Below, one piece after another: positions 1,847-8,969 of a stretch of DNA of 33,322 bases. The translations under genes were made by a program, and so were the position numbers. The notes beneath the pieces are model-generated. The model was not told where the DNA came from, made no database searches, and saw nothing but the letters and a program-made list of their open reading frames with translations. Origin of the DNA: Methylococcaceae bacterium (GTDB lineage: Bacteria; Pseudomonadota; Gammaproteobacteria; Methylococcales; Methylomonadaceae); assembly GCA_029937975.1 (NCBI GenBank), contig JAPYOW010000008.1, positions 1 through 33,322 on the forward strand. Direction: 5' to 3'. The first letter of the stretch is position 1. Each line of letters begins with the position of its first letter.

Positions 1847-1878
1847 AAAAGCCTCTTGGATTATAAAGTTGGTTGATT

Positions 1879-1905
1879 CTAGCACTCAAATGCTCGGAGT
1901 GCTAA
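1879..1905 (-). promoter_or_regulatory. CIRCE element (HrcA operator) in the rpoH leader
   Basis: Minus strand TTAGCACTC-CGAGCATTT-GAGTGCTAG; consensus TTAGCACTC-N9-GAGTGCTAA matched at 17 of 18 arm positions with exact N9 spacing. Confidence 0.88.
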
Positions 1906-1951: not shown

Positions 1952-2923
1952 CTATTCGGGGTTTATTTGTTTTAATTGGTAATGCAATACACCCCAAGCG
2001 CCTAAAATACCAAGGGATGAGGTAATGGCCAGCAGTGCCATGGTCTCTGTAAAACTTAAATAGAGTATATGAAAGGCACCATCGTAAAGAAACGATAAGC
2101 GTTCAATAGGCTGTTGCAACACACTCATCATTAAAGCCACTAATAGGCAGGCGAGTATGCCTGATAAAAAACCGAGCCAAAACCCCGCATACAGAAAAGG
2201 TCTCTGAATAAACGCGTGTGTGGCGCCGACTAATTTGGCTATTTGTACTTCATCACACCTGTTTTGTAATTCTAACCGAATACTGTTCCCTGTTATAAAC
2301 AATACGGCAAAACCCAACAAGGTACTGAGCAATGCGGCTCCTCGTTGCATAATTTCCATCATGGATTGCAGACGTTCAACCCATTGCATATCCATTTGAG
2401 TAAAATCAACCTGAGGTAACTGATTGAATTCTGCAAGCAAACTTTCTATACCTTGCATATCATCCAGACTATGACTGGGCAAGATTTGTATGACCATAGG
2501 CAAGGGGTTACTTTCTAAAACATCTAAAGCCTCCCCAAAACCGCTATATGTTTTAAATTCTTTGAGTGCCTGCGCCTTTGAAATAAAAATCACTTGTTGC
2601 AAACGGGGGTTTTTTCTTATTTCATCGGCTAATTGTTCGCCGGCTCTATCACCGACACTGGATTTAAGAAATAATGATATTTGATTGCTAGACTCGATAC
2701 TTCTGGTTAATTGCTGCACATTCGCAATTAACAAATAAAATCCCGATGCTAACGAAATAGCGATGGCCATCACCACAATGGTCATACTCATTGTGAACGG
2801 ATTTCTGAATAAACGGCCAAGACTGGAAAAAAGGGAGTGCGCATGAAGATACAAATAGGCCTGCAATTTATCGGTGAAACTCCTGCTTTGCCTGCTGTTA
2901 TGAGAATAGACTGTATTTTTCAT
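1952..2923 (-). CDS. ftsX: Cell division protein FtsX (permease)
   Basis: Position after ftsE, N-terminal TM, periplasmic domain and FtsX-like TM domain; overlaps ftsE by ATGA. Confidence 0.93.
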   Translation of the reverse strand: MKNTVYSHNSRQSRSFTDKLQAYLYLHAHSLFSSLGRLFRNPFTMSMTIVVMAIAISLASGFYLLIANVQQLTRSIESSNQISLFLKSSVGDRAGEQLADEIRKNPRLQQVIFISKAQALKEFKTYSGFGEALDVLESNPLPMVIQILPSHSLDDMQGIESLLAEFNQLPQVDFTQMDMQWVERLQSMMEIMQRGAALLSTLLGFAVLFITGNSIRLELQNRCDEVQIAKLVGATHAFIQRPFLYAGFWLGFLSGILACLLVALMMSVLQQPIERLSFLYDGAFHILYLSFTETMALLAITSSLGILGAWGVLHYQLKQINPE

Positions 2924-3583: not shown

Positions 3584-5584
3584 TTAGTCTGTCACAAACA
3601 AAGCATCGACAAAAGCTTTCGCATCAAAATCCTGTAGATCATCAATCCCTTCACCGACACCAATAAAACGGATCGGCAGGCCAAATTCTCTGGCTAAAGC
3701 AAAAATAACGCCACCTTTCGCCGTGCCATCTAGCTTGGTCAGTGCCAGCCCGGTTAATGCGACCGTGTCATTAAATATTTTGGCTTGCGACAAAGCGTTT
3801 TGCCCGGTACCTGCATCCAGCACCAATAAAACTTCATGCGGCGCTGTTTCATCCACTTTACCCATGATCCGTTTGATTTTCCTTAATTCTTCCATCAAAT
3901 TGGTCTTGGTATGCAAACGACCCGCAGTATCTGCAATGAGTACATCAATGCCTTTTGCTTTTGCTGATTGCACCGCATCAAATAAAACAGAGGCTGAGTC
4001 TGCTCCGGTATGTTGCGCTACCACTTGAATCTTATTGCGATCTCCCCAGGCTTGCAACTGTTCTACCGCCGCTGCTCTAAAGGTATCACCCGCAGCCAGC
4101 ATAACGCTATGGCCCTGACCCTGTAATCGCTTTGCTAATTTACCAATGGTTGTTGTTTTACCTACACCATTAATACCCACCACTAAAATAACAAAAGGTG
4201 TTTCTTGTTGCGGAATTTCAAGTGGCTGGCAACAAGGCTGTAAAATGTCCAGTAAACTTGCTTTTAAAACGGTTGCTAATGCTGCACCATCCTTTAATTG
4301 ATGTTTTTCTAATCGCTCAGTCAATTTTGAAATAATATCAGATGTGGTATCCACACCTACATCGGCCATGATTAAACTGGATTCAATCTGCTCCAGCAGA
4401 TCTTCATCAATGCCTTTTTGCGTCAGGCTTATGCTGGATAAGACGCCACCTAAACCTGTTCGGGTTTTCTGTAATTGTGTTTTTAATCTTAAATACAATG
4501 ATTCAGCGGAAGGCTCTTCATAAGCCTCTAGCTCTCTTGCCACATCGGCAACGGACTCTGCTGAAGATTCAACTTCAAGCGCTTCTGCCTGCTCATCAAT
4601 GAAAGCATATTTACTATAAAAACCAATAGCAATAAGTGGCATCATGAGTAATGCAGCCACTATATTATGCAGTATAGTCAAGCCTATAGGCGCTCCAAAC
4701 CGGATGCTCATGACGCCTAAGGAGATTTGTATCATCAGCAGAAAGCTTAAAGCCATTCCGGCCTTACGCACAGGACGTGAGTGTTTTTCCGAGGTGGCAC
4801 TCAATATTAACAAGGTCATTAATATAAAACTAATCCCCCCGCCCGCTCTATGCATCCAATGAACAGCCACTTGTCCATCAAAAGACAAGATACCGGCATA
4901 GCTTCTTTCTAAACCCGAAAGTAAATCTAATGCATTCAAATAATCGACGGCAGGTATCCATTGATTATTACAGCGAGGGAAATCTGAGCAGGTTAATGCG
5001 GCATTATTTTCACTGGTCCAAATGCCTAAAAAGATCTGCAGTAATAACGCGATAATGGAAAACCCAGCCAATAACCTGGGCCATGAATGCGAAGATTCAT
5101 TATGCAGTGTAATATTAGGTTGCACTCTTAAATACAGCCAATATAACAACCCAAACACAAAGAAACCGGTCAATAACTGTGCCATGAGCGTGACAGGCAT
5201 CGCATTCAAATCTACGACCCATTTATCCAGCACAAGATGAAATGCCACAATTCCCAATAATAAGAAAGTGGAAAAAACCGTCGAAAAACGACACTGTTTT
5301 TGTGTCCAGGCGGCTAAAGTCAGAACCACAATCAACAAGCCTAGAAAAGCCGAGCTATAGCGTTGAATTATTTTGGTCCAGGCTTTAGTAATATTGAATC
5401 GACTTTGTGGAAATTCCGCGGCGGCCTGTACTCTAAATTCCACATCATCTGAAACATATGCTTTTCCAAAGCAAGCCGGCCAGTCAGGACATGCCAAGCC
5501 TGAATTAGACACTTGTACAATAGAGCCCCAGAAAATAACTAATAGCGATACTAATAACGTAATTAAGGTAATTCTTCTAAACAT
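3584..5584 (-). CDS. Fusion: CtaA/Cox15-like haem A synthase domain (aa ~1-325) + signal recognition particle receptor FtsY (aa ~360-666)
   Basis: One continuous 666-aa ORF. N-part: GLACPDWPACFG, DFPRCNNQW, VHWMHRAGGG, LTILHNIVAAL (CtaA/Cox15). C-part: VVGINGVGKTTTIGKLA, AGDTFRAAAVEQLQAWG, IADTAGRL, LTKLDGTAKGG (FtsY). Acidic linker DEQAEALEVESSAESVADVARELEAYEEPSAES. Confidence 0.9.
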   Translation of the reverse strand: MFRRITLITLLVSLLVIFWGSIVQVSNSGLACPDWPACFGKAYVSDDVEFRVQAAAEFPQSRFNITKAWTKIIQRYSSAFLGLLIVVLTLAAWTQKQCRFSTVFSTFLLLGIVAFHLVLDKWVVDLNAMPVTLMAQLLTGFFVFGLLYWLYLRVQPNITLHNESSHSWPRLLAGFSIIALLLQIFLGIWTSENNAALTCSDFPRCNNQWIPAVDYLNALDLLSGLERSYAGILSFDGQVAVHWMHRAGGGISFILMTLLILSATSEKHSRPVRKAGMALSFLLMIQISLGVMSIRFGAPIGLTILHNIVAALLMMPLIAIGFYSKYAFIDEQAEALEVESSAESVADVARELEAYEEPSAESLYLRLKTQLQKTRTGLGGVLSSISLTQKGIDEDLLEQIESSLIMADVGVDTTSDIISKLTERLEKHQLKDGAALATVLKASLLDILQPCCQPLEIPQQETPFVILVVGINGVGKTTTIGKLAKRLQGQGHSVMLAAGDTFRAAAVEQLQAWGDRNKIQVVAQHTGADSASVLFDAVQSAKAKGIDVLIADTAGRLHTKTNLMEELRKIKRIMGKVDETAPHEVLLVLDAGTGQNALSQAKIFNDTVALTGLALTKLDGTAKGGVIFALAREFGLPIRFIGVGEGIDDLQDFDAKAFVDALFVTD

Positions 5585-8426: not shown

Positions 8427-8969
8427 TTATTTAACTGATATTTTTGTGTTATCAAAAAAAGTATAAGCGAGTGTGATAGTTTTATACTTTGTCGGTAATT
8501 CTGGATTAACAACAAATCGAACCGGCATGGTTTTACTCTGTCGGGGTTCGAATGTCTGCTCCGTAAAACAAAAGCACTCTGTTTTTTTAAAATATTCCGC
8601 TGCAGGCCCCGGTGTAATACTAGGAATTGCTCTAGCCACCATGGCTTTATCTGTGGTGTTTTCAGCATAAAAGTTCACCGTATAATACTGACCGGGATGT
8701 ACTTTTATTTTTCTTGTTTCCGTACGAAACACCATCGGCGCTGATTCATTAAGAGACGTGACAAACTCAATTGTGATGTCTCTATTTAAATCAATTTCGT
8801 AGTTTACTTCTGAGACGGCTTCAGCTGCCGTTTTACCATTCAGCCCTGTAATATCACAAAAAACATCGTAAATAGGCACCAAAGCATAACCAAAACCAAA
8901 CATAGCTATTACAATTAACACTAATTTACGCGCTAATTGCATGTTTTTTTTATCGACAGCCTCTCTCAT
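8427..8969 (-). CDS. Cytochrome c oxidase assembly protein Cox11/CtaG
   Basis: YDVFCDITGLNGKT, KTECFCFTEQTFEPRQSKTMPVRFVVNPELP. Start at 8969 (MREAVDKKN) is ATGA-coupled to the upstream mini-ORF. Confidence 0.93.
   Translation of the reverse strand: MREAVDKKNMQLARKLVLIVIAMFGFGYALVPIYDVFCDITGLNGKTAAEAVSEVNYEIDLNRDITIEFVTSLNESAPMVFRTETRKIKVHPGQYYTVNFYAENTTDKAMVARAIPSITPGPAAEYFKKTECFCFTEQTFEPRQSKTMPVRFVVNPELPTKYKTITLAYTFFDNTKISVK

Follow-up and report, generated by a model that had tools for sequence, protein, structure and literature searches.

A predicted HrcA operator overlapping promoter-like elements upstream of rpoH in gammaproteobacteria that carry hrcA

The heat-shock sigma factor gene rpoH of a Methylococcaceae bacterium is preceded by a CIRCE palindrome, the predicted operator of the repressor HrcA. 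Comparison with other genomes shows that such a predicted operator at rpoH is the rule in the gammaproteobacteria that keep HrcA, and not an oddity of one genome. The following can be read directly from the sequences: (i) the site; (ii) its cognate repressor gene; (iii) the conservation of the site; (iv) its loss together with hrcA; and (v) its overlap with promoter-like elements specific to rpoH. As to function, the palindrome is very probably a working HrcA operator that overlaps the promoter of rpoH and would release the synthesis of sigma-32 (the rpoH product) upon titration of GroE.

The window (i.e., the whole stretch of DNA analysed, 33,322 nucleotides in length) carries rpoH on the minus strand at positions 992-1846. 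The encoded protein is identified as RpoH by two curated models (TIGR02392: 391.6 bits, cut-off 323.1). By RpoH, the closest named relative (89% amino-acid identity) is a member of the Methylococcales that lives in symbiosis with the sponge Iophon, followed by matches that come mostly from methanotrophs. A likely Shine-Dalgarno sequence, AAGAGG, lies at 1852-1857 (minus strand). Upstream of rpoH are found ftsX (1952-2923, minus strand; TIGR00439, 324 bits), ftsE and then a gene ending in FtsY; the order ftsX-rpoH is common to the window and E. coli. At 3584-5584 (minus strand), a single frame of 666 aa carries COX15-CtaA (heme A synthase) at residues 4-315, followed by the SRP receptor FtsY at residues 383-663. 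Of the other genomes of the family that were tested, six match this frame over its full length and a seventh (G015) matches residues 63-666; since the one-frame arrangement recurs in this manner, it has the appearance of a gene fusion common to the lineage. In one draft genome (G013:C67:2572-3162), the rpoH match is limited to residues 89-284 and includes a TAA stop.

On the rpoH (minus) strand, positions 1905-1879 read TTAGCACTC-CGAGCATTT-GAGTGCTAG, which agrees with the HrcA/CIRCE operator palindrome, TTAGCACTC-N9-GAGTGCTAA, at 17 of 18 consensus positions. The 25-bp core, TAGCACTC-N9-GAGTGCTA (1904-1880), is a perfect CIRCE. The first-pass annotation had already described a 17/18 match at 1879-1905 that ended about 30 nt before the rpoH ATG (1846); both statements are borne out, the core lying 33 nt upstream of that ATG as measured here. 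No other position in the window matches CIRCE at three or fewer mismatches, and 100 dinucleotide shuffles of the window yielded no match at that threshold. It is extremely improbable that the palindrome is instead the intrinsic terminator of the ftsYEX operon: the inverted repeat does lie just past ftsX, but no T tract follows it, a terminator scan has no entry there, and the palindrome has the very letters of a CIRCE and goes along with hrcA.

The assembly that contains the window (2.2 Mb, 133 contigs) holds two CIRCE sites at two or fewer mismatches, namely the one at rpoH and a perfect one before groES. A third, degenerate CIRCE with three mismatches precedes the gene cluster hrcA-grpE-dnaK-dnaJ (G000:C98, L147), unlike the two perfect sites. 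On the same contig there is an assembly gap between hrcA and grpE, where a stretch of N is flanked by two similar sequences; the gap and the degenerate site together account for the positions about 7470 and 8597-8621 of this entry. The hrcA gene of this cluster is intact and encodes 345 aa (TIGR00331, 318.9 bits; PF01628, 4.6e-62), with both the DNA-binding domain (PF03444) and the C-terminal domain present. The repressor gene and the further CIRCE sites for which the first-pass annotation had proposed to look are both present in the genome.

Conservation of the site was followed at increasing phylogenetic depth. Within the Methylococcales, 29 of the 30 whole-genome loci have a CIRCE at rpoH with zero or one mismatch, and the protein match begins 31-50 nt further downstream. 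Six further loci (G026, G030, G033, G035, G037 and G040) have it at the same threshold, at 32-175 nt, and the G036 locus has none at one mismatch or fewer. When 42 named genomes were searched for hrcA, all those with the gene (14/14) had a CIRCE at rpoH and all those lacking it (28/28) had none at two or fewer mismatches. In the class-wide sample, with hrcA absence scored on draft genomes, the site at two or fewer mismatches is found in 53 of 58 hrcA-positive versus 1 of 15 hrcA-negative genomes (Fisher p 4e-10). Five hrcA-positive genomes of this sample thus lack a rpoH CIRCE at that threshold; the lone hrcA-negative genome with a site (G096) has it altered by one base, and its congener G229 retains hrcA. 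Because species are related, independent contrasts were counted on a quick RpoH tree: among 11 supported pairs, 8 agree with the association, none opposes it and 3 show no difference (median p 0.008). The first-pass annotation had interpreted the site as an HrcA operator at an unusual location, through which HrcA would repress rpoH and give rise to a serial heat-shock cascade. That interpretation stands as regards hrcA, the other CIRCE sites and conservation, the palindrome being kept across the class and usually absent or altered where hrcA has been lost. It has to be amended as regards both unusualness, since a CIRCE at rpoH is the common state in hrcA-carrying gammaproteobacteria, and the leader hairpin discussed below.

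At shorter range, the three members of the window's genus without a detectable hrcA (G001, G002 and G008) have one base altered in the rpoH site and the four with hrcA (G000, G004, G006 and G007) have a perfect core, a comparison of three versus four drafts that are 95-99% complete, so that hrcA absence could partly correspond to missing sequence. G001, in which no hrcA was detected, retains a perfect second CIRCE. In other genera, G020 and G036 have neither hrcA nor the rpoH site. In G015, hrcA is split by an apparently transposase-like insertion (L140, G015:C2:53000-55500), with approximately its last 117 residues aligned, and the rpoH CIRCE is still perfect, which counts against a simple story of co-loss. 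This last case, the degenerate CIRCE before hrcA, and the congeners with lost hrcA and altered sites would also fit an operator fallen into disuse in a reduced, possibly symbiotic genome and persisting by chance. Nevertheless, in the window's genome hrcA is intact and the rpoH and groES sites both have perfect cores, and we consider such a relic improbable.

Further information comes from the promoter-like elements with which the palindrome overlaps. The rpoH upstream regions were aligned on CIRCE, with positions counted from the first T of the core. In this alignment, a candidate sigma-E-type promoter is apparent: GGAACTT at -17 to -11 and TCTnA at +6 to +10, separated by a 16-nt spacer. In the window, the corresponding candidate elements on the minus strand are (i) a -35 element, TGAACTA (1915-1921; 5/7 to the relatives' consensus), whose position relative to CIRCE is conserved; and (ii) a -10 element, TCCGA (1894-1898), 16 nt away and inside the left arm and loop of CIRCE. 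Taken as a whole, the window's TGAACTA-N16-TCCGA scores 8/11, a moderate sigma-E match. When sites are scored as GGAACTT-N15..17-TCTnA, a value of at least 9/11 is reached by 32 of the 54 sites from the class, the other 22 falling below it, and by 17 of the 29 from the Methylococcales. The genome encodes RpoE (TIGR02939, 310.2 bits, above the cut-off), and the adjoining gene product is RseA-like (RseA_N, 25.2 bits against a cut-off of 24).

A second candidate element is an extended -10 formed by the right arm of the palindrome itself. Across rpoH sites, the right arm plus AAAT reads TGCTAAAAT; in the window, the right arm and four further bases give TGCTAGAAT (1876-1884, minus strand). The last T of this extended -10 is found in 91% of rpoH sites, as compared with 6% at groES (Fisher p 3e-11) and 37% at hrcA (Fisher p 1e-5). 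At the groES CIRCE sites (L235-L251), a TATTAT-type -10 ends at the palindrome, and the loop letters and the 3' flank are distinct. Among the aligned sites compared, those at groES and hrcA do not have the rpoH-type promoter elements. As the last T is biased toward rpoH and the groES sites follow a TATTAT-type -10, the operator overlies predicted -10 regions specific to rpoH. A fourth CIRCE-like site was seen in one genome (L274, G113:C1:2420888), with no groES, hrcA or rpoH recognised alongside.

The sigma-E-type promoter also occurs without the operator. Marinobacter, Halomonas, Chromohalobacter and Porticoccaceae, which lack hrcA, retain GGAACTT-N16-TCTAA or a near match to it, and in other groups lacking hrcA, such as Legionella and Shewanella, no sigma-E-type match above shuffles was found upstream of rpoH. 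In E. coli, GAACTT-N16-TCTGA is located behind ftsX, with the same layout and spacing as in the CIRCE-bearing relatives, and this element is known as the sigma-E promoter P3. E. coli differs in having no CIRCE at rpoH (the best match has 7 mismatches), and a control search for HrcA in E. coli K-12 gave no match. As for sigma-70, the best candidate of the scan in the window (TATAAT at 1865-1860 with TTGAGT at 1889-1884; 10/12) was set aside as less likely, since its start would lie near the Shine-Dalgarno sequence and, by eye, the only genus of the family to share it with the window's own is one other.

The location of these elements bears on a leader hairpin, which the first-pass annotation had also suggested and which has been put forward for certain Bacillus transcripts that contain a CIRCE. 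In this case, the palindrome would mainly act at the RNA level, its hairpin altering the stability or translation of the rpoH mRNA from within the leader, HrcA being secondary. The 27-nt element does fold alone (-10.5 kcal/mol, z -4.0), as any such palindrome must. But the conserved promoter-like elements put the predicted starts inside or downstream of the palindrome, and hence the rpoH RNA would lack one arm or both; besides, the exact CIRCE letters are kept, beyond mere pairing, and the site tracks hrcA. A main role as a leader hairpin is, therefore, very unlikely.

Since the element overlaps the promoter, and this with elements that are missing at the groES and hrcA sites, HrcA most likely keeps RNA polymerase from rpoH and in this way couples the sensing of GroE titration to sigma-32 synthesis. 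Control of HrcA by GroE is known in Bacillus and others, and we infer the same control here, together with HrcA binding and rpoH repression. At normal temperature, GroE-activated HrcA would bind positions 1879-1905 and, once bound, would occlude RNA polymerase at the sigma-E-type promoter and at the overlapping extended -10 promoter. Once GroE is titrated by misfolded protein, HrcA would release the operator and sigma-32 synthesis would rise together with groESL. The sigma factor that would use the promoter could, judging from its letters, be sigma-E; if this reading is true, a single promoter would make rpoH responsive both to stress in the envelope and to folding stress in the cytoplasm.

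The HrcA/CIRCE systems at groESL and hrcA-grpE-dnaKJ involve the same operator and repressor, likewise placed on a promoter, but their targets are chaperone operons and here the target is a sigma factor. Permina and Gelfand (2003) reportedly described the heat-shock regulons of beta-, gamma- and epsilonproteobacteria, and their study may already list some rpoH CIRCE sites. It is the source that Rodionov and colleagues give for gamma- and betaproteobacteria (PMC545781). For Geobacter sulfurreducens, Rodionov and colleagues predicted in 2004 that rpoH is preceded by a CIRCE at -51 (PMC545781, Table 8). That case is alike in its consensus operator before rpoH, the HrcA repressor family and the similar distance, but it concerns a deltaproteobacterium, a single genome among those studied, and the accessible text of that source reports no overlapping sigma-E promoter (PMC545781). 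In the open literature searched on HrcA with rpoH (methanotrophs; Xanthomonas, Xylella and Bordetella) and on HrcA with RpoE, neither the class-wide pattern nor the sigma-E overlap was found to have been reported before. Hence, a CIRCE at rpoH as such is already known from the Geobacter prediction, and what appears to be new, as far as that search goes, is its generality in the class and the promoter overlap.

Pseudoalteromonas represents a particular situation. In all 26 genomes of this genus (L115, L283-L307), the sole CIRCE at zero or one mismatch is the one before rpoH; the search covered up to two mismatches, and the remaining matches all have two. In the one genome of the 26 that was searched for hrcA, the HrcA protein is divergent and is encoded beside grpE. 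Since the rpoH operator is the only strong CIRCE left, Pseudoalteromonas HrcA looks like a dedicated rpoH regulator.

A wider evolutionary reading, which we regard as evenly balanced between right and wrong, can be proposed for the class. The ancestral rpoH promoter of HrcA-keeping gammaproteobacteria would be a composite gate, made up of a sigma-E promoter (P3 in E. coli) and an embedded extended -10 promoter under one HrcA operator. As the sigma-E promoter would sit under that operator, sigma-32 synthesis from it would need both free sigma-E (envelope stress) and the loss of active HrcA. The hrcA-less groups, among them E. coli, Pseudomonas and Vibrio, would then be derived, with the dedicated HrcA of Pseudoalteromonas forming part of the same reading.

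The usual picture, drawn from E. coli, attributes the control of sigma-32 to mRNA thermosensing, DnaK and FtsH, and assigns HrcA to a separate circuit. According to the present survey, the sigma-32 and HrcA circuits would be wired in series at the rpoH promoter in most hrcA-carrying gammaproteobacteria. Such wiring is directly testable in cultivable hosts and, with the two circuits in series at rpoH, GroE availability could set the synthesis of sigma-32 while DnaK sets its activity.
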